Positions 41,292 through 57,580 of a DNA stretch of 64,000 nucleotides are shown piece by piece. The notes under the pieces are model-generated. The model was given only the letters and a program-made list of their open reading frames with translations, searched no databases and was not told the origin of the DNA. Where the stretch lies: positions 2,976,001 to 3,040,000 of the forward strand of contig NZ_CP014263.1 in assembly GCF_001988955.1 (NCBI RefSeq), read 5' to 3'. How positions within the stretch are numbered: the first letter of the stretch is position 1; every line of letters begins with the position of its first letter. Source of the stretch: Spirosoma montaniterrae (lineage in GTDB: Bacteria > Bacteroidota > Bacteroidia > Cytophagales > Spirosomataceae). Both the position numbers and the translations under genes were made by a program.

Positions 41292-42293
41292 ATGATGCGC
41301 TATTTACGCTACACTATCCTGTTAATTGCCAGCGTATTTTGGGCGGCTGGGCTGTCGGGTACGGTTTCGCACTGGCTCTATGAGCAGGGCGTTATTGCCG
41401 ACGATTATCGCTACGGCGACCTATACCGGCTGTCGGCTCTGCCGCAGTTCAAACAACCGCAGCCCACCTGCCCGGCCTCTAACCGCGCCAGCGATACAGC
41501 AGCAACGCACCTGTATCTGCTTGGCGATAGTTTCACCGAACCCGAGCGCATTAGCCGCAACGATTTCAGCGTCAGCCATTTTCAGCGGATAAAGTGGGAT
41601 TTTCCGCAGCGTGTGCAGTTAGACTCAACGCGACGAAACGTGCTGCTGATTGAGTCGGTGGAGCGGCACCTGCGCGAACACCTGTCGCGGCCCGTGCGTG
41701 AGGTGATGATTGAAACCGATACTACCCAAACGCCAACTGAGCCGTTGGCCTGGTATCAGCGTGTTTATCATGATTTTCACCGCGAAGACGTGGAAGAGCG
41801 GCTCGAATCGGCTCTGTTTAGTCAGGATTGGGCGTTCTGGTTCAAAGAAAAAAAAGCCAGCCTGACACAAGGCTGGTTCGACCGGGTTAGCACGGGCGTG
41901 AGCGTATCGCGCAACAGGCAAGCCATTTTCCTGCATTCCGATGCCGATTCATCCGTGATGCAGTCGTCGTTTTCGCCCCTTACCAACCGCGACGTCGATG
42001 CCGTTGTCGATAGCCTGAACGCCACCGCAGCTTACTACCGGCAAGCAGGGTTCGATGCCGTTTATCTGAGTATTATCCCCAACAAAATCAGCATCTTAGA
42101 GTCAGAGCGGGGTTCCTATAACCGCCTGATTGAGCGGGTTCAGCAACATCCGCGCTTACAGGTTCCGGTTGTTAACGTGTATGATGCCTACCGCCAAAAT
42201 CCCCAATCGTCGTACCTGAAAGGCGACACCCACTGGACCTGCGAGGGCCGGGCAACGTGGCTGGCATTAGTCAGACAAAAACTTGGCGTTTAA
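41292..42293 (+). CDS. SGNH-hydrolase/AlgX-AlgJ-like protein
   Basis: The protein has 333 residues with an N-terminal hydrophobic signal or anchor (YTILLIASVFWAAGLSG). The SGNH features are YLLGDSFTEP (catalytic-type Ser) near residue 76 and YLKGDTHWTCEG (Asp-x-His) near the C-terminus, the arrangement of AlgX/AlgJ polysaccharide O-acetyltransferases. With the membrane acyltransferase at 34866 it may acetylate the glycan in the periplasm. It starts 11 nt after the previous gene, so the two are probably co-transcribed. Its stop overlaps the stop of the convergent gene at 42290. Confidence 0.75.
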   Translation: MMRYLRYTILLIASVFWAAGLSGTVSHWLYEQGVIADDYRYGDLYRLSALPQFKQPQPTCPASNRASDTAATHLYLLGDSFTEPERISRNDFSVSHFQRIKWDFPQRVQLDSTRRNVLLIESVERHLREHLSRPVREVMIETDTTQTPTEPLAWYQRVYHDFHREDVEERLESALFSQDWAFWFKEKKASLTQGWFDRVSTGVSVSRNRQAIFLHSDADSSVMQSSFSPLTNRDVDAVVDSLNATAAYYRQAGFDAVYLSIIPNKISILESERGSYNRLIERVQQHPRLQVPVVNVYDAYRQNPQSSYLKGDTHWTCEGRATWLALVRQKLGV

Positions 42294-42685
42294 GCCGCCA
42301 GCACGGCCTGCGTTCGCATGTTTCGTACTACCTCGTCGCAGTTGGCGCAGGCAAGTTTCCCCTGCTGATGAAACCAGCGGCAGCGATCACGAATGGCACA
42401 GGCAACGAGCGGGACATCGGCCTTGCGGTTCATGGCTTCCACGATTTTACCGACCAAACCGCAACCCGTTCCTTCGCCGGTCCAGTGGCCGCAGCCGTTT
42501 TTAGCGCAGTTGCTGGCAAATCGAAACCGCTCCTCCGGGGCACGTCCGCGCCGGGCTGTTTCCACAAAGGTCTGGTCGATAACAATCGATTCATCGAGGT
42601 ATTCAATGTGGCCCGATTCATTCTGAATGCCGAAGAGTTCGGCACCGGGCTTAGCAATAGAACTGGGGCAGAGCAGCGAAGCCAT
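42290..42685 (-). CDS. Cys-rich small protein of unknown function
   Basis: A 131-residue protein with eight Cys at positions 6, 60, 65, 75, 96, 102, 113 and 116. The spacing CAKNGCGHW, GCGL, CAIRDRCRWFHQQG and ACANC suggests metal or iron-sulfur binding. No family is recognised with confidence. It has no signal peptide or membrane segment. It follows the proline-rich peptide gene at 42759 on the same strand, separated by a perfect hairpin, so it may be part of the peptide locus or simply flank it. Confidence 0.6.
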   Translation of the reverse strand: MASLLCPSSIAKPGAELFGIQNESGHIEYLDESIVIDQTFVETARRGRAPEERFRFASNCAKNGCGHWTGEGTGCGLVGKIVEAMNRKADVPLVACAIRDRCRWFHQQGKLACANCDEVVRNMRTQAVLAA

Positions 42686-42708
42686 ACGGATAGGTAGTTA
42701 ACGTGAGC

Positions 42709-42751
42709 GGTTTGACATTGGCAGTGTTTCATATCCTGCCAATGTCAAACC
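42709..42751 (-). terminator. Perfect 16-bp hairpin between the proline-rich peptide gene and the Cys-rich gene
   Basis: GGTTTGACATTGGCAG (42709-42724) is exactly complementary to CTGCCAATGTCAAACC (42736-42751), with an 11-nt loop. It lies just after the stop of the peptide gene. There is no T-run after the stem on either strand, so it may be an attenuator or an RNA-stabilising 3' end rather than a classical terminator. Confidence 0.6.
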
Positions 42752-42758
42752 TTGTGTG

Positions 42759-43010
42759 TTATTTGGTCAGCAAATCAGTTCCGGGGAATGGCTCACGGGG
42801 CGGCAGCATACCGGCAATGGGCGGAATCAGGATGGGCGTGGGCCATCGGCTGACCTCGAACGGTAACGATTTCCCTCCATCGATAGCAGCCTGTGCCTCG
42901 GCGGTTAGCTGGCCGTTTTCGTCGATTTGCGCCAGTGCTCTCATCAGTTCTTCGCGGCTGGCAGATTTACCCTTCAGGGCGTTGATTTTGTCGATAATAC
43001 GTTTTTCCAT
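42759..43010 (-). CDS. Double-glycine peptide with proline-rich core
   Basis: An 83-residue precursor candidate. The first 46 residues are a charged helical leader ending QLTAEAQAAIDGG; the Leu at -12 and GG at -2/-1 match a C39-type cleavage site, although Ala and Gln stand where Glu and Leu are usual. The 37-residue core is rich in Pro (SRWPTPILIPPIAG, MLPPREPFPG) and has no Cys. Its promoter (43052-43117) has the same architecture as the export operon. It should be cleaved and exported by the transporter at 45026. A role as a proline-rich antimicrobial or signal is inferred. Confidence 0.75.
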   Translation of the reverse strand: MEKRIIDKINALKGKSASREELMRALAQIDENGQLTAEAQAAIDGGKSLPFEVSRWPTPILIPPIAGMLPPREPFPGTDLLTK

Positions 43011-43119: not shown

Positions 43120-43563
43120 TTATGCGTGGACACACACGATTTGCTCGTAAGCAGCACCCGCCAGCAGACGAACCCGCCGAATAAACTGCCCGGCCTCCGG
43201 TTGTTGCACGTCCACGCCCTCAAACACACCTTCTAAGAGCAGCATGGCCGATGGCGACAGCGTTTCTAACGAATGAATGTACCGGTTGGGGTCGTGTAAC
43301 AAACGAGCGCGAACCAGTAGATAACCCACTGCCCGAACCGGCCTGGTCAGCATCGATAGCAGCGTCAGCATATCGGTTAACGTAGCCGCGCCTGGCAGCA
43401 GCAACAAAGCCAGTCGGTCGCGCTCTTCGAGGAGTCGCCGGTAGTCGTGAGCCTGCCGACGGCGGTTTAAGGTATTCAATCGATTAGTGAGACTCTCCAC
43501 ACGGGGCCGGAGCCACGCCAGTTCAGCCTGAACCGGGGAGTTAAGCAAGTCGTTTGGTAGCAT
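43120..43563 (-). CDS. Hypothetical protein linked to the export operon
   Basis: A 147-residue protein starting 11 nt after the TolC gene stop, so probably co-transcribed with HlyD, ABC and TolC. It is Leu/Arg-rich and largely helical (RPRVESLTNRLNTLNRRRQ may form a coiled coil), with no signal peptide and no recognised domain. Context suggests an accessory or immunity role in the peptide system, but there is no direct evidence. Confidence 0.6.
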   Translation of the reverse strand: MLPNDLLNSPVQAELAWLRPRVESLTNRLNTLNRRRQAHDYRRLLEERDRLALLLLPGAATLTDMLTLLSMLTRPVRAVGYLLVRARLLHDPNRYIHSLETLSPSAMLLLEGVFEGVDVQQPEAGQFIRRVRLLAGAAYEQIVCVHA

Positions 43564-43574: not shown

Positions 43575-45029
43575 TTACAGGGTTCCGTTTCGGTAAAATT
43601 CAGCTACTTTAGCCCGCAACAGGGTTTCGTAACGCGCCTGAATCAGGTTGACCGATGCGCGGTCGAGGTTGCTTTTGGCGAGGTTATAATCTACGGCGTT
43701 GAGCAGCCCCGCGTTGTATCGGGCTTCGGCAGCTTTGTACGACTGTTGTAGCACCGTTACCTGTTGGTCAAGTGCTACGTAGCGATCATACGCATTTTGC
43801 CAGGCCGTTACGGCCTGATCGACAGCCTGCCGCAACGTTCGCCGAACGTCTTCGCCCTGCGATTCGGCCAACTGCTGTTGCAAACGGGCATTTGTTGTCC
43901 GATAGCGCACCTGAAAACCATTCAGGATCGGTACGCGAACGCTAAAGCCAATGGCTTTGAACTGGTTGTTATCCAATTGCCGGAAATAATTGATTCGCTC
44001 CTGCGACGACACCGGCGACAGCATCCGCACCGGATACACCTGTTCGCCCACCGTAACGAAGGCCGACGTAGGCTGCTCTACCAATTCATTACCCATCATG
44101 ACCTGCCGGGCCGCACTCGAAAAAGCTGTTCCCCAGTTTGCCAGCAGCGACACGGTGGGGTAGGCCAATCCCCGGGCGATATCGACACCTTTCTGAGCCG
44201 CTTTTGTGCGCAAATCTGCTGCCAGCACGTCGGGCATGATGGAACGAGCCTGCTCATAGAGCATGTGTGCATTCACACTGGCGGGGTTGGCAAGCCGGGC
44301 GGTGTGCTGCGGATCGGTTTCTAAGCGGGCTACCGCGAGCAACGTACCCGATGGCAGGTTCAATGCCTGGAGCAGCGCGAGATGGGCCGTGTTCAGGTTC
44401 GTTTGTGCCTGCACCCGCTGCATGTCGTCGTTGGCTAACTGGCTACGGGCGTCATAGAGGTTGTAGGGCGATACCGTACCGGCTTTTACCAATTTCTCCA
44501 TTCGCTCAACCTGCGCCCGCGCCACACTCACCTGAACTTCACTGGCGGCCAGCATATCCTGCGCCGACAACACCTGCAAATACGCGAGCAGGGTATTGAG
44601 CGTCACGTTATTCCGCGTGGCGTCGGCATCGTGCTGACTGGCGCGGGCCAGCAGGTTTTGCTGATCAAGGGTATGTTTTAGCTGAAAACCATTGAATACC
44701 ACCCAGTTCAGGTTCAGGCCGGCGTTGTTGGTCGTAATCCGATTGTTAACAATACCGTTGGTAAACGGGTCAACGTTGCGACCAAAGTTCAGTGCCTGAT
44801 TCGATACGCCCAGCAGCGTTGGCAACTGGCTCCGGCGTGTTTGTTCTACCGAGTTATCGGCAATTTGTTTTTGCAGATCGGCCTGCCGAACCACCGGTTG
44901 ATTTTGCAACGCCAGCGTAATACACTGCTCCAGCGTGACGGTCATAGCCGCCGGAAATGTGGTTGATGATTGCGCTCGAACCAGCCCCGCCAGTCCCAGC
45001 GCAGCGATGCATAGAAACGTCGTTTTCAT
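43575..45029 (-). CDS. TolC-family outer-membrane efflux protein
   Basis: The outer-membrane channel of a type I secretion system, 484 residues from the ATG at 45029 (MKTTFLCIAALGLAGL), with a signal peptide ending LVRAQS. A longer upstream frame is rejected because it runs through the ABC transporter gene. The TolC repeats are visible (LTLEQCITLALQNQPVVRQA and, later, RTLRQAVDQAVTAWQNAYDR and YNAGLLNAVDYNLAKSNLD). The ATG overlaps the TGA of the transporter gene (ATGA), indicating translational coupling. It should form a channel with the HlyD adaptor and C39-ABC exporter. Confidence 0.95.
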   Translation of the reverse strand: MKTTFLCIAALGLAGLVRAQSSTTFPAAMTVTLEQCITLALQNQPVVRQADLQKQIADNSVEQTRRSQLPTLLGVSNQALNFGRNVDPFTNGIVNNRITTNNAGLNLNWVVFNGFQLKHTLDQQNLLARASQHDADATRNNVTLNTLLAYLQVLSAQDMLAASEVQVSVARAQVERMEKLVKAGTVSPYNLYDARSQLANDDMQRVQAQTNLNTAHLALLQALNLPSGTLLAVARLETDPQHTARLANPASVNAHMLYEQARSIMPDVLAADLRTKAAQKGVDIARGLAYPTVSLLANWGTAFSSAARQVMMGNELVEQPTSAFVTVGEQVYPVRMLSPVSSQERINYFRQLDNNQFKAIGFSVRVPILNGFQVRYRTTNARLQQQLAESQGEDVRRTLRQAVDQAVTAWQNAYDRYVALDQQVTVLQQSYKAAEARYNAGLLNAVDYNLAKSNLDRASVNLIQARYETLLRAKVAEFYRNGTL

Positions 45030-47290
45030 GCTGTTAGTTGGGTTTCGGTCGTGTTGACTGCGTGAGGGAGTATGTCGCCATTGGCACTGATTTGCAGCAG
45101 GTCGATGGGCGCAGCCGGAGCAAGCGGGTGAACCGCCGTAAGCGGCATCTGCGAAGCCCACAGCCGGAAGTAGGCTCCCTGTAGGGCCATGAGCGCGAAA
45201 TGAGCACCTTCTTCAATTACTTTGCCCTGATCGACTACCACAATTTTATCGGCGTTCATGACCGTACTAAGCCGGTGAGCAATCAGAATAACGGTTTTGT
45301 TCTGTTCGCGCAGATGCCGGATGGTTTCCTGTACGCACTGTTCCGAAATGGAATCGAGCGACGACGTAGCCTCGTCTAAGATCAGAATATCAGGGTTTTG
45401 GTACAACGCCCGCGCAATGGCAATCCGTTGCTTCTGGCCACCCGACAAACTGGCTCCGTTTTCGCCGAGGTACGTATGGAATCCGTTGGGCAGCTTTTCG
45501 ATAAACTCCGTGATGCCGAGCCGCTGGCAGATGGCCATAATCTGCTCCATATCAGGTTGATATACCCCTACGGCAATGTTATCGATGACATCACCGGCGA
45601 AGAGATCTATCTTCTGCGGCACTACGCTCACCCGTCGCCGGAGACTGTCGTTACTGATGTGCTTGATGTCGTAGTCGCCAATGTGAATGCTGCCATGTTG
45701 CAGCGGATAGAGGTTTTGTAGCAACGACAGCAGCGTTGATTTACCGGAGCCACTCTCGCCCACTACCGCTGTAATTTTACCCTTTGGCACGGTTAGGTTC
45801 AGGTGGTCGAACACCTGCGTGCGGCTTCCGTAGCGGAACGATACGCCGTTGAACCGGATGTCGCCAATCATGTCTGAGCGCAGTTCAATCTTATTCTCGG
45901 TCTGTTCGCGTTCGAGGTCCATGATTTCAAACAGGCGGTCGGCGGCAATGAGCGCGTCCTGCACGGTGCGGTTCATGCCAATCAATTCGCTGGCGGGACC
46001 GGTGAAATACCCAATCAGGGCGTAAAACGACATCAGTTCGCCCGGCGTAATCTGATTATCAATAACATAGCCCGCTCCTACCCACAGCAGAATAATCGTA
46101 AACAGGCGCGACACAATCTCCGTCGCGTTGCCCGACCAGATGGAGTTGCGGGCCGAGTTGAAAATCGTTCGCAGCAGTTTAACAAAGCGGGTTTCGGTTT
46201 TGATGTTGGCAAACGATTCCAGCCCAAACCGCTTAATCGTTCCTACGGCGTTGAGCGATTCGACCAATTGCGACTCCAGTTCGGCGGAATCTTCCATCAG
46301 AATCCGCTGGTATTTTTTGTTCAGCCGGTTCACGAGGTAATAGATAATCCCGTAGAACGGAATCACGGCCAGCATAATCAGAGCCAGTTTCCAGTCGTAG
46401 GTAAACATCATACCGAACGAAAACAGTACGATGAACACATTGACAACCAGCCCCGTAGCGGCATCGTTGATAAACGCCCGAATCTTCACGGCGTCGTTGA
46501 TGCGCGAGATGATTTCGCCCACGCGCATGGTGTCGAAAAACTGCTGCGGCAGTTTCATCAGGTGTTTGTAATACCCCAGAATCAGCCGGGCGTCGATCTG
46601 CTGCCCCGTTTTCAGCGCGAACATACTTTTGACCGTGCCGATAAACAGTTGCAAGAGCAGAATCAGAATCATCGTCACGCTGAGCAGGTTGAGCAGATTG
46701 CGGTTGCCCTCCACGATGACGTTATCCACGATTTTCTGCACGTAAATCGAAGTCGATAGCCCCAGCACGGTGTAAATGAGTGCCCCAAACAGGGCTTGCA
46801 GCATCACGCTCCGGTGCGGCAAAACTAATTGCCAGAACCGTTGCAGGGCAGATACCTTCTGATTTCCGGTCTGAAACTCGGCGTCGGGCAGCAGCAGAAT
46901 CAGTACGCCCGTCCAGATTTTCTGAAACTCTTCGTGGCTGTATTTCACGAACTTACCCGGCCCAGGGTCCATCACTACTACGTGCTTCGGCGTAACGTCG
47001 TAGATAACCACGAAGTGCTGCAACACGTCTTTTACGATAACATGGGCAATGGCCGGTTTTGGTATTTTGGTCAGACTCTCGAACGTGCCACGCACACCTT
47101 TGGCTTGAAAACCCAGCCGTTGGGCCGCTTCAATCATGCCCAGCACGTTGGTGCCTTTCTGGTCGGTGCTCGCCATTTGCCGGATGCGGGCAATGGGCAT
47201 CAGCAGTTTATAATGAGCCGCTATCGACGCTAAGCAGGCCGCTCCGCAGTCGGTTATATCGTGTTGCTTAACAATAGTTTTCTTCTTCAT
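45026..47290 (-). CDS. Peptidase-containing (C39) ABC transporter for double-glycine peptides
   Basis: This transporter of 754 residues cleaves leaders and exports the cores. The N-terminal C39 peptidase has the catalytic Cys15 in DITDCGAACL, His92 in LQHFVVIYDV and Asp108 in VVVMDPG. A six-helix membrane domain follows (about 165-440) and then the ATPase with Walker A GESGSGKST, the signature LSGGQKQR and Walker B ILILDEATSS. The protein is complete, which fits processing of the seven GG-leader peptides in this locus. The HlyD gene is 36 nt upstream and TolC overlaps its stop. Confidence 0.97.
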   Translation of the reverse strand: MKKKTIVKQHDITDCGAACLASIAAHYKLLMPIARIRQMASTDQKGTNVLGMIEAAQRLGFQAKGVRGTFESLTKIPKPAIAHVIVKDVLQHFVVIYDVTPKHVVVMDPGPGKFVKYSHEEFQKIWTGVLILLLPDAEFQTGNQKVSALQRFWQLVLPHRSVMLQALFGALIYTVLGLSTSIYVQKIVDNVIVEGNRNLLNLLSVTMILILLLQLFIGTVKSMFALKTGQQIDARLILGYYKHLMKLPQQFFDTMRVGEIISRINDAVKIRAFINDAATGLVVNVFIVLFSFGMMFTYDWKLALIMLAVIPFYGIIYYLVNRLNKKYQRILMEDSAELESQLVESLNAVGTIKRFGLESFANIKTETRFVKLLRTIFNSARNSIWSGNATEIVSRLFTIILLWVGAGYVIDNQITPGELMSFYALIGYFTGPASELIGMNRTVQDALIAADRLFEIMDLEREQTENKIELRSDMIGDIRFNGVSFRYGSRTQVFDHLNLTVPKGKITAVVGESGSGKSTLLSLLQNLYPLQHGSIHIGDYDIKHISNDSLRRRVSVVPQKIDLFAGDVIDNIAVGVYQPDMEQIMAICQRLGITEFIEKLPNGFHTYLGENGASLSGGQKQRIAIARALYQNPDILILDEATSSLDSISEQCVQETIRHLREQNKTVILIAHRLSTVMNADKIVVVDQGKVIEEGAHFALMALQGAYFRLWASQMPLTAVHPLAPAAPIDLLQISANGDILPHAVNTTETQLTA

Positions 47291-47326: not shown

Positions 47327-48508
47327 TTATAACTTCTGGGCTACGACCGGCGTATTTTTCGGGTTGAGCCAGTCGTCGGCTTTGTCGTAGAGCAGGTCGA
47401 ACAGGCTGCGTTCGGTCACGACGAAGTTGGCCCGCAGCGTCATACCCTTTTTCAGGTTGCCTTTGTAGCCATTTTTAAGCGTCAGGAAATCGCGCTCCAG
47501 GCGGCATTTCACTTTGAAAACCGGCTGGTTATTCATCACCACGATGTCGTTCGATACGTCGGTGATTTTGGCGTGGGCCAGCCCCCACTGATTGTAGTCG
47601 AACGCATCGACCTGAATCCGGGCGGTCATGCCGGGGCGTAGCAGACCAATGTCTTTGGGCGATACGTAACATTCGACCAGCATGCTGGAATCGGGCGAAA
47701 TAACGCCCAGCACTTCGCCCGGCTGCACGTAACTCCCCGGATACCGCCCCGCCAGTTGGCTCACGGTGCCGTTGACGGGTGCTTTGATGGTATGCAGCGT
47801 CTGCTCATTGAGAATCTGCCGCTCCTGCGCCCGCAGTTCGTCGAGGGCTAATTGTTGCTGAGTCAGGTTGGCCTGCCAGTCGCTCACCTGCCGTTCAATC
47901 TGCGAGGCATACTGCGCCACTACGCTCTGATAGGCATATTCTTTGTCTTCAAATTCCTGCTTGGCAAGTACCTGATCCTGATACAGTTGCTGCGTTACGT
48001 CCAACTCACGTTTGCGTTTGGCCTGGGCCTGCGTGTTTTCGGTGAGCATAAACCGAAACTGCTCGTACTGCTGCCGAATCAGGGGCGATTGCAGATTCGC
48101 GACGTTAAGCAGAGCCTGCCGGTCGGCCCTGACGAGCCGTTCGAGGTCGCGGATGTTGAGGAGTTTTTCGGCCTGCTGCGACCGGTTGAGCCGGAGCCGG
48201 GTTTCGAGAACGGCGGTCTGCAGCCGAATCATGGGTTGCCCCCGCCGAACGGGCTGATTGTCGCGAACAAGAACCTGAGCTACCGTACCGGCCACCAGCG
48301 GGCGGATTTCGTTGCGCTCGGCCACCGGGCGGATGATGCCGGTACTTTGCACCGACACCTCAGTATAAATGAAAGGCAGTGAGAGCAGCGCGGCCACGAT
48401 AGCCAGGGCTACTGTGCTGTAGATGAGTTGCCCCCTCACCGTGACCTGGGGCAGGTAAGCCTCCGTCGTGTGGTCAATGACGGCGGGCGGATGGAGTTCG
48501 GTTTGCAT
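47327..48508 (-). CDS. HlyD-family periplasmic adaptor
   Basis: The protein has 393 residues. A single membrane helix (about 30-52, LIYSTVALAIVAALLSLPFI) is followed by a lipoyl-like half (RPLVAGTVAQVLVRDNQPVR), a long coiled-coil hairpin rich in Gln/Arg/Leu (about 115-235), the second lipoyl half (TIKAPVNGTVSQLAGRYPG) and a beta-barrel domain. It bridges the C39-ABC transporter to TolC. It is the first gene of the export operon, and its promoter (48548-48613) has the shared repeat architecture. Confidence 0.94.
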   Translation of the reverse strand: MQTELHPPAVIDHTTEAYLPQVTVRGQLIYSTVALAIVAALLSLPFIYTEVSVQSTGIIRPVAERNEIRPLVAGTVAQVLVRDNQPVRRGQPMIRLQTAVLETRLRLNRSQQAEKLLNIRDLERLVRADRQALLNVANLQSPLIRQQYEQFRFMLTENTQAQAKRKRELDVTQQLYQDQVLAKQEFEDKEYAYQSVVAQYASQIERQVSDWQANLTQQQLALDELRAQERQILNEQTLHTIKAPVNGTVSQLAGRYPGSYVQPGEVLGVISPDSSMLVECYVSPKDIGLLRPGMTARIQVDAFDYNQWGLAHAKITDVSNDIVVMNNQPVFKVKCRLERDFLTLKNGYKGNLKKGMTLRANFVVTERSLFDLLYDKADDWLNPKNTPVVAQKL

Positions 48509-48547
48509 CGTTTCTCTGACGTTTAGATAAGGCTTAAAATCTTATCT

Positions 48548-48613
48548 CAAAGGTCGGGCGATGCCGCAGCGAACTCAATAACAAGGCGTTGTACTTTATA
48601 ACCAGCCGGAATA
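48548..48613 (-). promoter_or_regulatory. Promoter with paired direct repeats, copy for the export operon
   Basis: On the minus strand a -7 box GACCTTTG (48548-48555) has a -33 element GTTATTGA (48575-48582) 19 nt upstream. On the plus strand the repeats GTTGTA (48588-48593) and GGAATA (48608-48613) are 20 bp apart; the second is degenerate. The predicted transcript starts about 33 nt before the ATG of the HlyD gene. Confidence 0.65.
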
Positions 48614-48641
48614 GCTTATGCCTGTAGTATGATCGACCCAT

Positions 48642-48692: not shown

Positions 48693-48839
48693 TCAGTGAG
48701 TCACGTAATAAATAAACTCACCTACACTTTTACCGAACCTATAAATGAAGTATGCCGAAAGCAAGACGAGAACGAAAGCTACATATCTATTGTCCGACAG
48801 TTCTAACATACTCTTTATAGCCTTTTCTACCACGTTCAT
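48693..48839 (-). CDS. 48-residue membrane peptide, candidate immunity protein
   Basis: A small gene read from the ATG at 48839, which overlaps the TGA of the preceding peptide gene (ATGA), so translation should be coupled. The protein has one membrane helix (YVAFVLVLLSAYFIYRF) and no leader or GG site. Its C-terminus YRFGKSVGEFIYYVTH aligns with YEAGKYTGEVIYHLTH of the peptide encoded just upstream at 9 of 16 positions, including a GxxxG motif. That pattern suggests a decoy or helix-pairing immunity protein against the bacteriocin-like peptide; a leaderless peptide is another possibility. Confidence 0.72.
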   Translation of the reverse strand: MNVVEKAIKSMLELSDNRYVAFVLVLLSAYFIYRFGKSVGEFIYYVTH

Positions 48840-49030
48840 TTCTTGTGCGTGAGGTGATAGATAACTTCGCCGGTGTACTTTCCTGCCTCGTAGATGGCTA
48901 CAGCAGCAGCAGCAGCAGCTCCGATGGCTAAAAAGGGAACCAGAAAGCCGCCACCTTTGATAACAAGCATTTCATCGTCAGCTATAGCAACCACCTTGTA
49001 ATCGCCTGATGATAAGTTCATTGCTTCCAT
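48836..49030 (-). CDS. Double-glycine peptide, GxxxG type (second of a putative pair)
   Basis: A 64-residue precursor candidate starting at 49030 (MEAMNLSSGDY). The leader ends VVAIADDEMLVIKGG, with Ile at -12, Glu at -8, Met at -7 and GG at -2/-1. The core of about 37 residues starts GFLVPFLAIG, has an Ala-rich membrane stretch and a GKYTG (GxxxG) motif near the C-terminus, then a basic tail. It begins 5 nt after the 97-residue peptide gene, as in two-peptide class IIb bacteriocins, and is coupled to a possible immunity gene downstream. Confidence 0.82.
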   Translation of the reverse strand: MEAMNLSSGDYKVVAIADDEMLVIKGGGFLVPFLAIGAAAAAAVAIYEAGKYTGEVIYHLTHKK

Positions 49031-49748: not shown

Positions 49749-49883
49749 TCAGGCCTGAGGGCCTTTGTAGCGAAGCAGGTCGCTTACGGCATCGATGATG
49801 GCATCGACAATAGCGTCCACAATGCCTCCGCCCGCTACAGTTTGCATTTCTTCCTGACTTAGCTCTTGTTGTTCAGTATTCAT
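49749..49883 (-). CDS. Short double-glycine peptide with an IVDA-repeat amphipathic core
   Basis: A 44-codon gene from ATG 49883 to TGA 49749-49751, below usual length cut-offs. The leader ends QQELSQEEMQTVAGG (Leu -12, Glu -8, Met -7). The core begins with a third Gly and repeats the unit IVDA (GIVDAIVDAIIDAVSDLL), then ends RYKGPQA. The repeat places Ile/Val and Asp on opposite faces of a helix, as in short amphipathic antimicrobial peptides, though here the polar face is acidic. The gene lies 45 nt downstream of the lipoprotein gene. Confidence 0.85.
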   Translation of the reverse strand: MNTEQQELSQEEMQTVAGGGIVDAIVDAIIDAVSDLLRYKGPQA

Positions 49884-49928: not shown

Positions 49929-50159
49929 TTAACCGAGTACCTTACCTACTCGCAGATTAGTTTTGCGAACCCGGATTGGTAGAGTCGGGCTTATTTCCAG
50001 ATGGATGGAATCGCTTTCCGTTGGTCGAGTCTGGGGCGTTGTAGCCGAGACTTCCTTTTGCACAGAGCGGGCAGGCTGAACGGTTGTTTCCTCACGTTCG
50101 CAGGCACTCGCCAGTAATACCAGTCCAGCGAGACAACTCAATCGAATTAGCTTTTTCAT
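49929..50159 (-). CDS. Small lipoprotein, possible immunity lipoprotein
   Basis: A 76-residue protein with a clear lipoprotein signal (MKKLIRLSCLAGLVLLASAC, Cys at 20). The mature part is short, Thr/Ser/Pro-rich and ends in a basic segment (RVRKTNLRVGKVLG). No family is recognised. A CAAAGT-type -7 box is visible upstream on the plus strand at about 50180, but the direct repeats of the locus are not. Small lipoproteins often protect producers of membrane-active peptides; this role is inferred from position only. Confidence 0.65.
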   Translation of the reverse strand: MKKLIRLSCLAGLVLLASACEREETTVQPARSVQKEVSATTPQTRPTESDSIHLEISPTLPIRVRKTNLRVGKVLG

Positions 50160-50233: not shown

Positions 50234-50425
50234 TCACTGCTTGTCGGGCGGAATGCTGAAGAATCTGTCTTCGCCAGCCGGTATGCGCTTGAGGCCAAGC
50301 AAAAAGAGCGACAGGCCCGTAAAGCATTGATAATAACCTCCCGTAATACGGTTGAGGGCGGTACCGTCTAATTCCTGAACACCAGGCACGGTCAGGGTGC
50401 GATTATTGTTTTCTATCTTTTTCAT
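50234..50425 (-). CDS. Double-glycine peptide with Cys/aromatic core
   Basis: A 63-residue precursor candidate whose leader ends VQELDGTALNRITGG (Leu at -12, Leu at -7, GG). The 33-residue core begins YYQCFTGLSLFLLGLKRIP and contains one Cys, one Thr and two Ser, so it is one of the few GG peptides here that could carry a thioether or disulfide. Its promoter at 50455-50520 has the shared direct-repeat architecture. Confidence 0.8.
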   Translation of the reverse strand: MKKIENNNRTLTVPGVQELDGTALNRITGGYYQCFTGLSLFLLGLKRIPAGEDRFFSIPPDKQ

Positions 50426-50722: not shown

Positions 50723-50926
50723 CTACGCCACGGGCGGATACAACTCAATAGGCAGGTTCACAATTGGGCCACCAATCGGGAACGGCAGCGGCATGGGTAA
50801 TGGCTTAGGAAAAACTGGGAACGGCAGCGGACGAATGCGCCCTACCAAAGAGCCACCTGATGTTTGTTGCAGTTCGTTCTGGCCTAATGCGGGCAGTTCG
50901 CTGCTGGTTGTGCGTTGGTTTTTCAT
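50723..50926 (-). CDS. Double-glycine peptide with proline-rich core
   Basis: A 67-residue precursor candidate. The leader ends LPALGQNELQQTSGG (Leu -12, Glu -8, Leu -7). The core of 42 residues is strikingly Pro-rich: SLVGRIRPLPFPVFPKPLP, then MPLPFPIGGPIV and a Pro-containing tail. It has about 14 Pro, two Arg and one Lys and no Cys. Such composition recalls insect and mammalian proline-rich antimicrobial peptides that act on ribosomes, but no homology is claimed. Its promoter (50955-51020) has the shared architecture. Confidence 0.82.
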   Translation of the reverse strand: MKNQRTTSSELPALGQNELQQTSGGSLVGRIRPLPFPVFPKPLPMPLPFPIGGPIVNLPIELYPPVA

Positions 50927-51026: not shown

Positions 51027-51206
51027 TCAGGCCGCTTCTTCGTAATAAGCAATAGGCTCATCAACCGGCAGTTCCATCTGCCCAAACAGATCACCCGCCG
51101 ACACAATCCAATTGTCATCGAACACACCGATTTCATCGGCCATTGAATCGATGTCATTGTTAATCCATACTTCAAATGAGAATTCGGAGTTGATGCGCGT
51201 TTTCAT
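51027..51206 (-). CDS. 59-residue acidic protein co-regulated with the peptides
   Basis: Read from ATG 51206 to TGA 51027-51029. The protein (MKTRINSEFSFEVWINNDID...) is strongly acidic, has no Cys and no GG cleavage site (VSAGDLFGQ is the nearest), and ends AYYEEAA. No family is recognised. It has its own promoter (51255-51320) with the shared architecture, which ties it to the system, and it lies just after the LanB terminator. It could be a leader-less precursor, a chaperone-like partner or an immunity factor. Confidence 0.65.
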   Translation of the reverse strand: MKTRINSEFSFEVWINNDIDSMADEIGVFDDNWIVSAGDLFGQMELPVDEPIAYYEEAA

Positions 51207-51254
51207 GAGTTTATCCGGTTTATGTTATCATTAATTAGCTTGTTTTTGTTGTGT

Positions 51255-51320
51255 CAAAGTTGGCAGGCTATTTATTGGTTCTCAACAACCTGACGTTATA
51301 TCGTAATCAGTGTGGGCATA
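51255..51320 (-). promoter_or_regulatory. Promoter with paired direct repeats, copy for the 59-residue protein
   Basis: On the minus strand a -7 box CAACTTTG (51255-51262) has a -33 element GTTGTTGA (51282-51289) 19 nt upstream. On the plus strand the repeats GTTATA (51295-51300) and GGCATA (51315-51320) are 20 bp apart. The predicted transcript starts about 42 nt before the ATG. Confidence 0.7.
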
Positions 51321-51345
51321 ACTTATTCGCCTGCCCAAACGGCAT

Positions 51346-51374: not shown

Positions 51375-54300
51375 TTAGCTTTTCTTCGGTTGCAGCCGCG
51401 CCCGAACCGAGTCGTAATGTTTGGCTAAACAATGGTATAGCACCAATTCGTAAGCCCGCTGCTTGGACGGGAAAAGCCGGTTTATGAGCATGTGTACTAA
51501 GCTTTTGAGGATGTTCTGCCACGCTTCGCCCGGCCCTATGGCTTCGCCCAACTGCCGGAGCAGCGTAGCCTGCTGTTGCCGCCAGTCGTGTACGTCTTCA
51601 TCAACGCCAAACTGCTCCGACAACGCCTGAGCCAGTAGCGGTCGATAGGTACGGTATTTCTCATTCAGTTGCTGGCGCAGTTCAGAACGCCCGCCAAATT
51701 CCTGAAAAAAGCTTTCTTTAAGCTGCGTAATCATCGTTAGGCAGGCATCGACCGACAAGCCCGCATCGGTTAGCAATACGTCGATTTTGCGAACGGCGAA
51801 GGCAAAGCGCGTATTCTCATCGAACACGTCGCCGGTTTGGGTAAGAAACGCCAGCGTTGACAGACTATCGTGGTGAAACAGCGTTTCACAGCGGTCTATG
51901 TGTTCTGTGCCATACCGTTCCAGTTCGCGCTGATACGTATCGACCTGCACCCGATACACCACGCCAGCCTCAATGGATTGTTGCAAGGCCCGCTCGGTAG
52001 CCCGAACAACGTACTGATAAAACTCAAGGTGCGGGTTTCCCCGGAACCGCAGCCGCAGGTGCGGGTCGGTATCTTTATACCGGACAAAGAAAAAAGCCTG
52101 CACAATCTGCGTTTTCAGCAACTGTTGCACCACCGGATAAATGGCCTGAACCAGCAGCGCGTCAGACGTTTTTTCGCCAGTGTAAATCTTCAGATAAAAC
52201 CACTCGCTGCCAACCGAAAACTTACGCTGTGGCAACTGACCGCTGATTTGACTCAGGCCGGGCAGTGGTTTGGCCTGTGTGTTATAAAAGGGAAGAATCA
52301 ATTCATGCGTAAACCGTTCGCGCTGGTGCGACAGGGGGCAGTTGTCGGGTGAAGCTAAAAACTCGGTTAAACGAATCTCATCATGCTTTTTGATTTCGCC
52401 CGCCAGCAGGGCGAGCGAAGCCGGTACGTGCATGGAAATGCAAAGTTCATTGTCGCCCTGAGTCAGTAAAAATTGATCGGGCAAACCGGCTGCGGTCAAT
52501 TGTGCTACCAGCCGAAGCGGATTTTCGGGCGTAAGGTCCCGACATTTGAGTTGCCAGGTAGCCCGGCTCAGAATAATGTTGTGATACCGCACACGGGGCA
52601 AATACGTTTGCGTTCGCAACACACCCCAATTCCAGGCTACGTTCAGGTGAGCATCCTGCGATTGGAGGTCGCATAGAAACCTGTAAATTGGCAGGCCATG
52701 CGTAAAATTGTGGGCATTGGTCAGTCTTGGAATAACGCGCCGGTTCAGCCGTTTGGAGCGCAGAATCAGCGTATTGTTCCGAATCGACACCATCAGGTCA
52801 GCCAGAGAAATCTGGTAATCGGGCGATACTGACGATTGGCCCAGATACGGAATTTCGTACCGATGCAGTGCAGGACGGGACAGAATATTACCCACCCGAT
52901 CTTCGGGCAGATGAACAATCTCGGCAAAAATAACATCGGCGTGAAAAAGCTCCTTCTTCGCCACCGAAGCCCGCAAATGCTGCTCAAGCTGGGGTTCGCC
53001 TTCGCAGAACCGACTGAGCAGGCTCAGGCCCGACGGTCCGCGATAGGCCAGTAGATTGAACCGAAAGTCGCCGTTGTCGATGGCTTTCTCCGAAGCTGCC
53101 AGCAGGGTGCCAAATACGTAAAAACTGTAGGGCAACGGAGCCGACGTTCGCTGTTGTGAGCCGATGTAATTCAGGTCGTCTTCAGACAGTAGCACTTCGC
53201 GCTGCTGGGTTCTGAGGGCGTTGGCATATTTATCCATCACAAACGTTTGCCACCAGTCCCAGGTAGTTGTTTGAGTGACCTGTTCGCTGCTAAAGGTTAA
53301 GTCATCGATTAAGGGCGCGTAGCCAACGCCCAACGTTGAACCGGAGCCATAACCAACGCCAAACTCGCTGTCGAGGGCCAGTGCCAGCGGGACTTCCTCG
53401 TCTTCGTAGCGGTTATAGAATCGGTGCTTGAACTCGTCCAGATCAGGGCATCGATGGGGCTGATTCAGCACTAATAGTTTCTCCAGATTACGGTTTAGCT
53501 GCTGCATCATCCGCTCGCTCAGCCGCAACTTTGTCCCATTGAAAAACGCATCGACCTGTAAAACGTCGGTAGTTTGAGGAGTAATCTGGCGGTCGGTAAG
53601 CCATTGCCGGACATCGTGATACACCCGCTCGAAGTCGGTATCCTGGAGTATGGTTCGCAGTTGGCAAAGCTCACCTGCAACGGTTTGGGCAGTTGGCAGG
53701 GCTTCGAGCCGTGCTATCAATCCATCGAGCGCGTACAGGCCGGTTACGGCAGGCTCAATCGTAAAAACGAGCAGTTGACCCTCTATCAGTTGCTCTATAA
53801 AAGCAGCAGCTTCATCGGGCTGCGCATCCAGTTCGGTCAGCCGTTCGATTAGCTCCTGAATAGTAGCTCCGTTACGGGCTGCTTCCAGCACCGCCATCAG
53901 GTACGGGTTTTCTTCGACCGCGCTGATGAAATAATGCCGTTGCCCGTCATTGTCCTGTTGTTCAACATAGCGTAACGAAGAACCGACCGGATATACCGAC
54001 GAATTGGGAACCAGTTGGAGTTGGTTGCGTATGGCCTGCTGTTGCGTGAGCCATGTGCGAATCGCAAGCAGGTTGTCGATATCCAAACGCTGGTGCGTGT
54101 GAAGGGCTGCTATTCCGCCTGTTTGCAGTTGTGTTTGTGGCCCATAAGCGCCAACGGCACAGCCGGCAAACAGGCCATAGGGCGTTGGGCGGCTGCACAT
54201 CCGCACGAAATATTTATGCAGCGTGGTAAGCAGTTTATCGTGTTCGGGCAGCGTTTCGCCCAATAGCCACCGCTGCAAGCGTTCGTAGAGGGCAGGCGAA

Positions 54301-54455
54301 GCAGCTAATATAGCCCGTTGTGCGGCAGCGTTCTGGTAGTGCTGGCGCAGCAGGCCGTCGAGCGGCTCGGTGAGCAGACGTTCGTAGAAACGGTAAATGT
54401 GCTGTAGGGAAAAAACAGGCTGTCGTAGTACGAAAAAGTTGGCAGGATGGATCAT
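51375..54455 (-). CDS. Class I lanthipeptide dehydratase (LanB-type), full length
   Basis: LanB enzymes dehydrate Ser/Thr of a precursor using glutamyl-tRNA. This 1026-residue protein has both domains. The glutamylation part contains the signature RPTPYGLFAGC (near residue 92) and RLNRRVIPRLTNAHNFTHG (near residue 575). The C-terminal elimination (SpaB-C-like) domain starts about residue 730 and includes EWFYLKIYTGEKTSDAL and AFFFVRYKDTDPHLRLRFRG. Truncated relatives that add amino acids via tRNA lack this last part, so this is more like a true dehydratase. No LanC cyclase is encoded in the window. The adjacent 42-residue Thr-rich peptide is a candidate substrate. Confidence 0.95.
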   Translation of the reverse strand: MIHPANFFVLRQPVFSLQHIYRFYERLLTEPLDGLLRQHYQNAAAQRAILAASPALYERLQRWLLGETLPEHDKLLTTLHKYFVRMCSRPTPYGLFAGCAVGAYGPQTQLQTGGIAALHTHQRLDIDNLLAIRTWLTQQQAIRNQLQLVPNSSVYPVGSSLRYVEQQDNDGQRHYFISAVEENPYLMAVLEAARNGATIQELIERLTELDAQPDEAAAFIEQLIEGQLLVFTIEPAVTGLYALDGLIARLEALPTAQTVAGELCQLRTILQDTDFERVYHDVRQWLTDRQITPQTTDVLQVDAFFNGTKLRLSERMMQQLNRNLEKLLVLNQPHRCPDLDEFKHRFYNRYEDEEVPLALALDSEFGVGYGSGSTLGVGYAPLIDDLTFSSEQVTQTTTWDWWQTFVMDKYANALRTQQREVLLSEDDLNYIGSQQRTSAPLPYSFYVFGTLLAASEKAIDNGDFRFNLLAYRGPSGLSLLSRFCEGEPQLEQHLRASVAKKELFHADVIFAEIVHLPEDRVGNILSRPALHRYEIPYLGQSSVSPDYQISLADLMVSIRNNTLILRSKRLNRRVIPRLTNAHNFTHGLPIYRFLCDLQSQDAHLNVAWNWGVLRTQTYLPRVRYHNIILSRATWQLKCRDLTPENPLRLVAQLTAAGLPDQFLLTQGDNELCISMHVPASLALLAGEIKKHDEIRLTEFLASPDNCPLSHQRERFTHELILPFYNTQAKPLPGLSQISGQLPQRKFSVGSEWFYLKIYTGEKTSDALLVQAIYPVVQQLLKTQIVQAFFFVRYKDTDPHLRLRFRGNPHLEFYQYVVRATERALQQSIEAGVVYRVQVDTYQRELERYGTEHIDRCETLFHHDSLSTLAFLTQTGDVFDENTRFAFAVRKIDVLLTDAGLSVDACLTMITQLKESFFQEFGGRSELRQQLNEKYRTYRPLLAQALSEQFGVDEDVHDWRQQQATLLRQLGEAIGPGEAWQNILKSLVHMLINRLFPSKQRAYELVLYHCLAKHYDSVRARLQPKKS

Positions 54456-54635: not shown

Positions 54636-54995
54636 TCATCCTTTTTTGGCTATATATCGCTCCATTGTTTGCGCGAAGCGGTCGAATGAATAAGGTTCTG
54701 TCAGGAAATCGAAGGGGTTCAGATCCAGGTAGTCAAAAAGGTGCTGCGGATAAGGCGACGTTGCAATCACTACCGGGTGCCGACGCAATGCATCCAGAAA
54801 ATCGTCGGGTACGCTCGTATCGGGGTCGGGCAAGCGTAAGAAAACCAGTTCACAGTCAGCCGATTGCAGACAGGCAAGCATGTCATCGGTAAACGCACCG
54901 GCCTGACCGACGCCCAGCCAGCCGATGCGTTGTAGATAGTGGGCAAGCTGACTCCGGCTCGCCCTCGAATAATTAAGGGTGAGATAAGCTTGCAA
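54636..54995 (-). CDS. Degenerate CheY-like receiver domain protein
   Basis: A stand-alone receiver-like protein of 119 residues. The fold is readable (alternating strands and helices; ELVFLRLPDPDTS for strand 3, HPVVIATSPYP for strand 4, FDFLTEPYSFDRFAQTMERY for strand 5 and helix 5), and it resembles the receivers of LytTR regulators. The phospho-acceptor Asp of FLDIQMPD is Arg here (FLRLPDPD), the Lys of strand 5 is Glu (LTEPY), and the acidic pair at the N-terminus is absent. It therefore cannot work as a normal phosphorylated receiver and may act by binding a partner. It lies between the Thr-rich peptide and LanB genes. Confidence 0.72.
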   Translation of the reverse strand: MQAYLTLNYSRASRSQLAHYLQRIGWLGVGQAGAFTDDMLACLQSADCELVFLRLPDPDTSVPDDFLDALRRHPVVIATSPYPQHLFDYLDLNPFDFLTEPYSFDRFAQTMERYIAKKG

Positions 54996-55292: not shown

Positions 55293-56375
55293 TCACTGAA
55301 GCTCAATCTGCAACCGGGCCGTATATGAATCAGAATCGGGCGTAAGGCTCAGTTCATACCTGCCCGCGTAGAGCGAATCCAGCCGCCGACGCACGTTCGA
55401 CAGTCCTACTCCCCCAGCCTTCTTACCTTTGTTTCTAATCAGCGACTCCGGTATTTGCCTGCTTATGAGGCTGTTTTCAACCTCGAACAGTAATACACCC
55501 GAGCCAATTTCGGCCCGCACCTGCACATAGGCTGGCTCGGCGGCTCCTTTGACGCCATGTTTAAAAGCATTTTCAACAAAGGCAATCAACAACAAAGGTG
55601 CAATAGTATATGGAGCCGGGTCGCCCTGCTGGTCGTACTCGATCAATACATCTTCATCGAGCAGCCGATTGCGTTCCAGACTGAGGTAATTCTGAATGTA
55701 AGCCAGCTCTTTTTCCAAATCGATGCGGGGCACGTTTGCTTCGTAGAGGTTATAGCGCATCAACTCCGACAACCGCAACACTAAATCGGCGGCCTGCTGA
55801 TCGGAATCGAAAACCCGGCCATAAACGCTGTTGAGCGTATTGAACAGAAAATGAGGATTAACCTGCGCTTTCAAAAAAGCCAGTTCCAGGTTCAGATTGT
55901 CGGTTCGTAACCGAATAATATCATTGACGACCCGCACGGTCAGAATGATTAACGCAAACGGAAAGCTATACATAAAACTCCATAAAGCTCCCAGCCAGTT
56001 GCTGGCAAATCCCAGCAAACCGGCGTCCAGAAACAATTTCCAGTCGCGCTCGATACGGGGGCCATCGTTAATTTGTTGCAGATACCAGAAGAGCAGATAA
56101 TTCGTCTCGTAGATAAGGGTATGGACAAAAAACAGCCAGGCAAGCCCTACCCCAAACCGATATTTGTAGATGTAGCGGGGAAAAACAAAATAGCCTAAGA
56201 AATAATAGATAGCTATTGTTTGCAGAACCAGCCCCACCGATATCCAATCCTCTACCTTTTTGTTGTCGTGAAAGAAAAAATCAACGAGAATAAGTCGCAT
56301 GATTAGCGCACATCCTATCCATAACACGATGTGCGTAGTCAGGCTCTTACGGTTTGCGGTTAACCAGTTTGCCAT
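55293..56375 (-). CDS. LytS-type sensor histidine kinase
   Basis: A 360-residue membrane histidine kinase. Four membrane helices occupy residues about 15-160. The His-kinase domain carries the phospho-acceptor motif AQVNPHFLFNTLNSVYG, and the ATPase part has LLLIAFVENAFKHGVKG (N box) and KAGGVGLSNVRRRLDSLY (G box). It should phosphorylate the LytTR regulator encoded at 56804, with the XRE gene between them on the other strand. Located at the start of the peptide locus, it is the likely sensor for peptide production. Confidence 0.93.
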   Translation of the reverse strand: MANWLTANRKSLTTHIVLWIGCALIMRLILVDFFFHDNKKVEDWISVGLVLQTIAIYYFLGYFVFPRYIYKYRFGVGLAWLFFVHTLIYETNYLLFWYLQQINDGPRIERDWKLFLDAGLLGFASNWLGALWSFMYSFPFALIILTVRVVNDIIRLRTDNLNLELAFLKAQVNPHFLFNTLNSVYGRVFDSDQQAADLVLRLSELMRYNLYEANVPRIDLEKELAYIQNYLSLERNRLLDEDVLIEYDQQGDPAPYTIAPLLLIAFVENAFKHGVKGAAEPAYVQVRAEIGSGVLLFEVENSLISRQIPESLIRNKGKKAGGVGLSNVRRRLDSLYAGRYELSLTPDSDSYTARLQIELQ

Positions 56376-56566
56376 TGTTAGTTTTTACAGTAACATAAAC
56401 GATGCGTGTGAACGGGAATGACTTTACATATCTCGTGCCAGTCGAAGCCTATTGTTTACTGGTCGAAAAAAACTGTGTATTGGTCGAAATTAGTTTTAAT
56501 GCATTCGTTGACCTTATTGTTTTGTAGCAACCAAACACGCAAACAACCGCAAAACCAACTTCCGTC

Positions 56567-56809
56567 ATGAACCCAATTGCTCTAAAAATCCGCAAGCTGC
56601 GCGAAATTCACGGCTACCCCCAGGAGTACGTTGCGTTTCAGTTGGGCGTTAGCCAGGCCGCTTACAGCAAAAAAGAAACAGGCCGCACCGAACTATCGCT
56701 GACGGTGTTGCAGCAGGTTTCGGCCCTGTACGGCATCAGTCTCATAGACCTCATCAACCTGAACGTACAAGACCTGATTGTGATGGCTGTTCGGCAACAG
56801 GTTTCATAA
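56567..56809 (+). CDS. XRE-family HTH regulator
   Basis: An 80-residue single-domain DNA-binding protein with the HTH_3 fold: IALKIRKLREIHGYPQEYVA, then FQLGVSQAAYSKKETGR and ELSLTVLQQVSALYGISLID. It faces away from the kinase gene and converges on the response regulator gene, overlapping its 3' end by 6 nt. Its targets are unknown; position suggests a role in control of the peptide locus. Confidence 0.9.
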   Translation: MNPIALKIRKLREIHGYPQEYVAFQLGVSQAAYSKKETGRTELSLTVLQQVSALYGISLIDLINLNVQDLIVMAVRQQVS

Positions 56810-57580
56810 CAGGTTCTTCCTCAGTTCTTCCATCACGGCATCGCGGTAGGTAACGCCAATTTGTACGCGTTTCTGCCCGTCGATGGTTTTAATCAGATTA
56901 CCGTCTATTTCTTTAATAGCCTGCCGACGCACAATGAACGACCGATGTACGCGCAAAAATTTGGAGGGGGGCAACATCTCCTCCAATCGGCTCATGGTCA
57001 TGTGCGTAATCAGGAGTTGATCGTTTAGTTGCAGCCGAACGTAGTCTTTCATACCCTCGGCGAACACAATATCGTCGGGCGCTACCCGTACTAATTTCTT
57101 ATCGGCTTTAATCAGGAAATACGGCACCCGCTCGCGTGGGTCGGCAAGTTCGTCGGATTGCGGGCGGGTAGCCGGGCGCGTCAGCACGGGCGCATTCGGG
57201 TCAGCAACAAAATTCAGCCGCTTCGCCACGCGGTTGATGGCTTCCAGAAATTTGTCGAAACCGGCAGGCTTGAGCAGGTAATGTGTTACGGCGTCGAAAT
57301 TATAGGTTTCGGCGGCAAACTCAGGCGAGGCCGTCACCATAATAACAGCCGGGTGCGGCAGGGGCAGCGAACGCAAAAATTCGACGCCTGACAAATACGG
57401 CATCTCCACGTCCAGAAACAGCACGTCTGGTTTGAGCTCCTGCACCTTGTCCAGCCCATCGAACGGATCGGTGCTTTTGCCGAGCAGCCGCAGATAAGGC
57501 ACCCGCTCAATGTACTTTGTCATGATGTGGTGAGCAGCCCCCTCATCATCAATCAAATAGCAGGTTAGTGTTTCGTTCAT
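56804..57580 (-). CDS. LytTR-family response regulator
   Basis: A 258-residue regulator. The receiver has the acidic pair in CYLIDDEGAAH, the phospho-acceptor Asp in DVLFLDVEMPYLSG and the Lys in HYLLKPAGFDKFLEAI. The C-terminal LytTR DNA-binding domain starts about residue 150 (VPYFLIKADKKLVRV, FAEGMKDYVRLQL, FLRVHRSFIVRR). LytTR domains bind pairs of direct repeats about two helical turns apart; five promoters of the peptide locus carry GTTATA-like repeats 20 bp apart, which makes this protein their likely activator (inference). Its partner is probably the kinase at 55293. Confidence 0.95.
   Translation of the reverse strand: MNETLTCYLIDDEGAAHHIMTKYIERVPYLRLLGKSTDPFDGLDKVQELKPDVLFLDVEMPYLSGVEFLRSLPLPHPAVIMVTASPEFAAETYNFDAVTHYLLKPAGFDKFLEAINRVAKRLNFVADPNAPVLTRPATRPQSDELADPRERVPYFLIKADKKLVRVAPDDIVFAEGMKDYVRLQLNDQLLITHMTMSRLEEMLPPSKFLRVHRSFIVRRQAIKEIDGNLIKTIDGQKRVQIGVTYRDAVMEELRKNLL

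Follow-up and report, generated by a model that had tools for sequence, protein, structure and literature searches.

What is the function of a locus in which seven small genes with similar leaders lie beside a single peptidase-containing exporter, a lanthipeptide-type dehydratase and two kinds of regulator? The question is raised by a 64-kb stretch (hereafter the window; NZ_CP014263.1, positions 2,976,001 to 3,040,000) of the 5.80-Mb single-contig genome of Spirosoma montaniterrae. A previous sequence-only reading had proposed a multi-peptide double-glycine (GG) locus there. The locus is probably a regulated multi-peptide bacteriocin locus of class II type in a Gram-negative bacterium, served by one exporter and one shared operator. 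On the minus strand its order, 5' to 3', is LytTR, LytS, ORF119, LanB, ORF59, P7, P6, a lipoprotein-like open reading frame (ORF), P5, P4, P3, P2, ORF48, HlyD, C39-ABC, TolC, ORF147, P1 and ORF131, where P1 to P7 are the predicted precursors. A small Xre gene lies on the plus strand between LytTR and LytS.

All seven small ORFs of the sequence-only reading are present, on the minus strand, and the leader pattern described for them largely holds. GG at -2/-1 and a hydrophobic residue at -12 occur in all seven, Leu or Met at -7 in six (Gln in P1) and Glu at -8 in five (Ala in P1 and P6). As a fixed pattern, it was matched by six of the seven precursors, all within 2.65 kb (48601-51250); P1 lies outside this stretch and does not match. 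The stretch was picked once the ORFs were already known, and its six matches compare with a mean of 0.088 and a maximum of 2 in 1000 dinucleotide shuffles. Across the whole window, eight ORFs match the pattern, of which the two extra ones look spurious; 60 shuffles averaged 3.7 matches and reached at most 9. Since the window-wide count falls within the range of the shuffles, it is the clustering, and not the total, that is notable. The cores had been said to have nothing in common. This is a fair statement at the sequence level within the genome. Even so, P1 resembles P7 in being proline-rich and P2 resembles P3 in its high Gly and Ala content, while relatives of P5 are found in five other loci.

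The presence of one C39-ABC/HlyD/TolC exporter was confirmed by TIGR01193, scored over its cut-off, and by Pfam. In a comparison set of 59 genomes that included S. montaniterrae, orthologs of the exporter with at least 86% identity were found in this genome and nine others. Loss of the short ORFs from relatives that keep the exporter had been set beforehand as the observation that would speak against the locus; arrays of 3 to 8 GG peptides were found in all ten exporter loci, and these conserved arrays support a multi-peptide double-glycine locus with one exporter. Together they hold about 56 peptides, 55 in the final list and one recognised afterwards (L064_8669; compared loci and genomes carry L and G numbers). 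The list was edited by hand (one row dropped, one cleavage site corrected, five peptides added), and alignment A2 contains one sequence twice. The peptides fall into 30 core groups, 10 of which occur in more than one species; the number of groups depends on an ad hoc shuffle-based threshold, and single linkage merged two peptide types judged distinct.

Peptides are shared between the arrays in blocks. Three adjacent peptides recur as a block in L039, L043 and L064, a two-peptide block is common to L043 and L064, and another pair is common to L042 and L046. The core of P5 was grouped with peptides of L039, L042, L043 and L057, and a peptide of L064 shares its YKGPQA end (score 60, reached in none of 2000 shuffles). 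The cores of P2, P3, P4, P6 and P7 are singletons in the grouping. When P7 was aligned as a whole with a peptide of L064, the score of 102 was reached in none of 2000 shuffles; the cores alone scored 52, which was equalled in 96 of 2000 shuffles and is not convincing. The leader type of P4 recurs in many loci. Exchangeable cassettes would describe the arrays better than the word combinatorial, used in the sequence-only reading.

Weaker relatives of the exporter are also accompanied by such peptides. Sixteen were listed and 13 examined (L065-L077, 60-72% identity); at least one likely GG peptide was recognised by reading in 12 of the 13, and the operator described below was found in none of them. 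Six of these loci, all without a LanB match (L066, L069, L070, L071, L075 and L076), hold one to three similar GG peptides of 72-89 aa with cores rich in Ser, Thr and Asn. They also carry a divergent Xre gene and, by eye, a related promoter design, with TTATAAC and GTTATCAG ahead of a CTTTGT box. Among the individual loci, L057 (G019) has its matches to LanB and to the C39 exporter each split over two frames (a frameshift or an assembly error), and L042 (G030) has a second, truncated HlyD start.

The genes of the locus are further connected by a shared operator. A model of it was built from the ORF59 upstream regions of eleven other genomes, with the window excluded from training, and has 97 columns, 25 of them invariant. 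In the window this model finds five sites at E<1e-3, located 5' of ORF59, HlyD, P6, P1 and P7, so that operators stand directly 5' of several precursors; it finds none belonging to LytS, LytTR, P5, P4, P3 or P2. Across the 5.8-Mb genome the same five sites were recovered at E of 3.9e-4 or better, and the next match has an E of 0.24. In all ten exporter loci, the window included, HlyD and ORF59 are each preceded by an operator; eight of the ORF59 sites in the other nine loci are training data, and no HlyD site was used in training. The compared loci (943 kb, some overlapping) contain 54 matches at E<0.05, three of them in stretches covered twice. In the genome scans, that of S. montaniterrae included, some 150 candidates were scored per genome out of 700-2800 picked at first look; across 28 genomes, one match away from the locus was found in each of G011, G013 and G076. 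A terminator-like hairpin lies 3' of LanB, and hairpins were also seen by reading 3' of P7 and ORF48. A consensus scan gave no excess of sigma-70-type sites (12 vs 14.6 in shuffles) or terminators (16 vs 18.2).

Which regulator binds this operator? LytS and LytTR, the regulators listed in the sequence-only reading, are both present, but across genomes it is the small Xre gene, absent from that list, that the operator follows, and not LytTR. The Xre protein is the best candidate for operator binding. Xre proteins of at least 74% identity were found in 16 of 28 genomes, exactly the genomes whose operators reach E of 3.6e-9 or better. In eight genomes the Xre protein is 62-70% identical; two of these have operators at about 1e-5 to 3e-6, one has an operator at 0.005 and five have none. 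The remaining four have no Xre match at E<=1e-15 and no operator. Training sequences came from eleven of the 16 genomes, and another two are near-copies of those, which leaves this genome (G000), G059 and G094 as independent cases. The argument from phylogeny is considered stronger than the co-occurrence. In midpoint-rooted trees, read with supports left aside and with the weak operators of L083 and L084 counted as negative, operator-positive Xre proteins form one clade, whereas operator-positive LytTR proteins form two separate groups.

It is possible, if doubtful, that LytTR binds the operator and activates transcription in the manner of blp/agr-type systems, and that Xre has another part; this would be compatible with a bacteriocin locus. 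Within the operator, three TATAAC-like direct repeats (columns 11, 31 and 51) follow each other in 20-bp steps and end at the -33 region. LytTR proteins bind such direct repeats, and LytTR is present in most operator-positive loci. The two LytTR groups in the tree argue against this, as does the operator core, which is also palindromic (AYAAC-N5-GTTRT). Furthermore, the best LytTR identities are only 49-51% in G006, G059 and G094, which have operators at E 5e-19 or better, and 52% in G011. Identity to the DNA-binding domain of the window's LytTR is 57-61% in the operator-positive loci L050, L081 and L082, and 57-63% in operator-negative ones, among them L047, L049 and L051-L056.

Several genes beside the peptides are candidates for immunity. 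The C-terminal part of ORF48 aligns with the core of P2 (score 59; best of 2000 shuffles 44), and ORF48 is taken as an immunity candidate. The small lipoprotein-like ORF was matched by tblastn in eight of the nine remaining exporter loci, and the ninth, L040, has a similar ORF. Among ten hand-picked ORFs of the relatives' arrays, four Rce1-like (CPBP) and three DUF3267 proteins scored over cut-off and one VanZ-like protein below it. Genes of these three kinds often serve bacteriocin immunity. Mimicry of a proline-rich peptide by the lipoprotein tail was also considered; in the five pairs tested, shuffled peptides scored equally well, and the idea was rejected.

What is the role of LanB beside these peptides? 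The dehydratase, like the LytS-type kinase and LytTR named with it, was confirmed by Pfam. It has both domains of a class I lanthipeptide dehydratase (PF04738 and PF14028), aligns to NisB across both (E 3.9e-43) and has 9g04 as its best solved match (E 6.3e-63); positions that we take to be essential look conserved in the NisB alignment. Close LanB proteins were found in Spirosoma utsteinense, S. oryzae and a Spirosomataceae bin among named genomes. No LanC was found in the window; LanC-type matches (PF05147) lie elsewhere in the genome, two at 3.53 Mb and one at 3.70 Mb.

A conserved companion of LanB is ORF59, a protein of 59 aa. Its 84 homologs at E<=1e-3 are all titled hypothetical or uncharacterized protein. 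W33, S36, A37, D39 and F41 are invariant in 84 of 84, within the motif W-x-[VI]-S-A-x-D-[LI]-F. No Cys is conserved: 78 of the 84 have none, six have a single one and none has two. ORF59 adjoins LanB in 23 of 27 loci examined, in three gene orientations (co-directional in 20, the window included, divergent in L061, convergent in L083 and L084, with a partial match there). Elsewhere the two are separated by three genes (L049) or lie about 11 kb apart (G011), and in L085 and L086 ORF59 is present with no LanB found in the locus. ORF59 occurs in 26 of 200 genomes searched in the family, all of which also have LanB. It has its own copy of the operator and LanB has none.

ORF59, with or without LanB, is also found in other toxin loci. 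The second ORF59 of this genome stands, together with an Rce1-like gene and a paralog of ORF147, at the end of an Sdp-type locus (L086:8587-14859, at about 3.69 Mb of G000:C1), in which SdpA and SdpB score over cut-off and SdpC-like ORFs are also present, one of them below cut-off. Some 14 kb away there is a LanB-like gene broken into pieces. A similar-looking locus surrounds an ORF59 copy in G024, without a confirming family match. In L037, LanB-ORF59 lies beside NHLP-leader precursors, one ORF scoring over the TIGR03793 cut-off, with a TPR/guanylate-cyclase protein between, and by resemblance the same type of precursor accompanies the pair in L050, L081 and L082. In G006, six tandem Cys-containing lanthipeptide-like precursors (L060:2230-3778) lie beside a LanB of more distant type.

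Since ORF59 occurs in Sdp-type loci without an adjacent LanB, and the LanB-ORF59 pair beside NHLP-leader precursors, LanB probably does not serve the GG cores. ORF59 may be either a substrate of LanB or a general companion of toxin loci. A speculative and rather unlikely extension is that the two form a cyclase-free pathway, in which LanB would dehydrate the invariant Ser of ORF59 to give a conserved dehydroalanine peptide, a signal or helper shared by unrelated toxin exporters (GG arrays, NHLP-type arrays and Sdp-type loci). The Sdp-type copies of ORF59 without an adjacent LanB speak against a strict pairing. An FNLD-like leader box was considered as a mark of P4-type peptides as LanB substrates and was rejected, since C39 loci that have no LanB match also contain leaders of this style.

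The sequence-only reading had joined LanB to the peptides, and modification of the GG cores by this enzyme found no support. In such a combinatorial lanthipeptide-like system, LanB would dehydrate Ser and Thr of the cores, and a distant LanC or dehydration alone would complete the product. There is precedent in the prochlorosin system, where one enzyme serves many substrates; a full-length LanB does stand beside the array, LanC-type genes exist elsewhere in the genome, and Ser, Thr or Cys is present in 54 of 55 cores of the ten arrays, with Cys in 21 and two or more in 6. However, 34 of the 55 cores have no Cys and LanC is missing from the window. No precursor of the LanA kind, with Ser or Thr and Cys in its core, was recognised in the window, which has one Cys in seven cores (in P6) and none in ORF59. 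None of the 13 weaker C39 loci has a LanB match within the stretch examined, although 12 have a likely GG peptide, and in L051-L053 and L055 no likely GG peptide accompanies LanB-ORF59. This alternative is considered quite unlikely. The GG peptides could instead be pheromones for LytS and LytTR and not toxins, as the two regulators and weak, sub-cut-off BlpC/ComC-like matches of P6 might suggest. That is very unlikely, given many unrelated cores for one sensor, the CPBP- and DUF3267-type membrane proteins in the relatives' arrays, and G011, which keeps array and operator though its best LytTR is so divergent. Finally, the short ORFs may be mostly spurious and the exporter may serve other substrates: 20 of the 30 core groups are confined to one species, and two further window ORFs match the leader pattern by chance. 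The clustering relative to shuffles, the leaders and ten core groups conserved between species, and the operators directly upstream of several ORFs make this most improbable.

The regulated class-II-type bacteriocin locus has its own difficulties. The leader of P1 differs from the other six, the group of P6 is among the single-species ones and some ORFs may be false, and no second ORF48-like pair was found in the other nine exporter loci. No window peptide reaches the cut-off of any curated bacteriocin model, P4 being nearest (TIGR01847, 15.4 vs 15.7; TIGR03949, 16.8 vs 21.5; PF10439, 16.1 vs 27.1). The direct repeats of the operator and the near-universal Ser, Thr or Cys in the cores belong with these points. 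Since all precursors are below curated cut-offs, they are labelled class-II-type and not members of those families. Supporting plug-in bacteriocins are the C39 exporter over cut-off, the arrays in all ten exporter loci, the clustering, the five operator sites, the shared peptide blocks, the CPBP and DUF3267 genes, and the likeness of ORF48 to P2.

From the anatomy of the locus, its conservation, the operator and the sharing of peptide blocks, all read in the sequence itself, we infer how such a bacteriocin locus would work. The Xre regulator (less likely LytTR) would bind the shared operator and control five transcription units. The C39 domain of the ABC exporter would cut each precursor behind the double glycine, and the cleaved peptide would leave through HlyD and TolC, most likely unmodified. 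The peptides may act singly or as two- or three-part sets, probably killing related bacteria through their membranes or envelope proteins, and small membrane proteins and lipoproteins encoded beside them would confer immunity. The array would evolve within a conserved frame, by exchange of peptide-immunity cassettes. A linked module would be formed by LanB and ORF59.

Table 1. Features of the locus in the window, with the basis of each assignment.
Feature	Position	Strand	Basis
LytTR-type response regulator (REC + LytTR)	56804..57580	-	Pfam PF00072 + PF04397
Small Xre-family HTH (helix-turn-helix) regulator, 80 aa	56567..56809	+	PF01381
LytS-type membrane histidine kinase	55293..56375	-	PF06580
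ORF119, TTG start, receiver-like	54636..54995	-	alignment to LytTR receiver domain; no Pfam match
Full-length LanB-type dehydratase	51375..54455	-	PF04738 + PF14028; aligned to NisB
Operator/promoter 5' of ORF59	51254..51331	-	nhmmer E 1.2e-10; genome-wide E 3.6e-9
ORF59, 59 aa, conserved LanB companion	51027..51206	-	84 homologs at E<=1e-3
Operator 5' of P7	50955..51021	-	nhmmer E 4.5e-4; genome-wide E 3.9e-4
P7, predicted GG precursor, proline-rich core	50723..50926	-	ORF + leader
Operator 5' of P6	50455..50522	-	nhmmer E 1.9e-6; genome-wide E 7.0e-7
P6, predicted GG precursor	50234..50425	-	ORF + leader
Small lipoprotein-like protein, immunity candidate	49929..50159	-	tblastn conservation in arrays
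P5, predicted GG precursor, IVDA-type core	49749..49883	-	core relatives in other loci
P4, predicted GG precursor, short hydrophobic core	49376..49501	-	TIGR01847 15.4 bits vs cut-off 15.7
P3, predicted GG precursor, Gly/Ala-rich core	49036..49329	-	TIGR03949 16.4 bits vs cut-off 21.5
P2, predicted GG precursor, Gly/Ala-rich core	48836..49030	-	TIGR03949 12.6 bits vs cut-off 21.5
ORF48, leaderless small protein, immunity candidate	48693..48839	-	overlaps P2 by 4 bases; aligns with P2 core
Operator 5' of HlyD-ABC-TolC	48547..48624	-	nhmmer E 1.1e-7; genome-wide E 8.2e-6
HlyD-type periplasmic adaptor	47327..48508	-	PF13437
C39-peptidase ABC exporter	45026..47290	-	TIGR01193 550.2 bits vs cut-off 523.85; PF03412
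TolC-type outer-membrane channel	43575..45029	-	PF02321; start set at Met ahead of signal-like stretch (listed ORF extends to 45161)
ORF147	43120..43563	-	no Pfam or NCBIfam match; 33% match in L086
Operator 5' of P1	43068..43126	-	nhmmer E 4.3e-5; genome-wide E 1.1e-4
P1, predicted precursor with longer, different leader, proline-rich core	42759..43010	-	relatives in L039, L045, L064, L083, L093, L094
ORF131, Cys-rich conserved protein adjoining P1	42290..42685	-	69 homologs

Two further genes of the locus deserve mention. In an alignment with the LytTR receiver domain, the phospho-acceptor Asp is missing from ORF119 in 17 of 17 sequences; the gene is kept near LytS and LanB. Homologs of ORF131 were found in Spirosoma, Rudanella, Larkinella, Dyadobacter and others, and some of the records are titled nitrogen fixation protein.

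How does this locus compare with known systems? The pneumococcal blp (pneumocin) locus has GG leaders, a C39 exporter and common control. It is described as uniting several class-II-type peptides with immunity genes in a single operon, whose gene content is highly variable between strains (PMC4860687). The present locus resembles it in its several class-II-type peptides, candidate immunity genes and variable content. Unlike blp, it has a Gram-negative host with HlyD and TolC, a LanB-ORF59 module and no dedicated pheromone that was recognised; 20-bp repeats like those of the LytTR-controlled blp promoters are present, but the operator follows the Xre gene. Bacteroidetocins are experimentally tested GG-leader peptides of Bacteroidota exported by a peptidase-domain ABC transporter; they have at least two Cys and a gene for a transmembrane protein, in most cases a thiol oxidoreductase as well, and lack an obvious immunity gene (PMC6671954). 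Leaders, exporter type and phylum agree, but the present locus encodes several peptides, and none of the window cores carries two Cys. P2, P3 and P4 weakly resemble the lactobin A/cerein 7B family (TIGR03949), all below its curated cut-off. Class II bacteriocins have been predicted in Bacteroidota (PMC12648078).

LanB genes have been noted in Spirosoma linguale (PMC3091789), and Bacteroidales genomes were reported to lack LanB, unlike other orders of Bacteroidetes (PMC10352776). Like the class I lanthipeptide clusters of Bacteroidota, the locus has a full-length LanB; unlike them, it has ORF59 in place of a Cys-rich LanA, and no LanC in the window. It shares with SdpABC loci the ORF59 and ORF147 paralogs that close such a locus in the same genome, but differs from them in toxin and exporter, and the Sdp-type locus has no adjacent LanB. 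Searches of open-licence papers listed no account of this array or operator; for ORF59 there is no name under which it could be searched. All the parts belong to known kinds, but their arrangement, the control element and the ORF59 companion beside LanB look new.

If the proposed explanation is correct, Bacteroidota would possess a plug-in toxin arsenal similar to blp. A readable control element would tie together peptides that are too short and too varied for family models, and the operator could be used to find unannotated peptide toxins in related genomes. ORF59, in turn, may provide a handle on the role of a LanB without a neighbouring cyclase.

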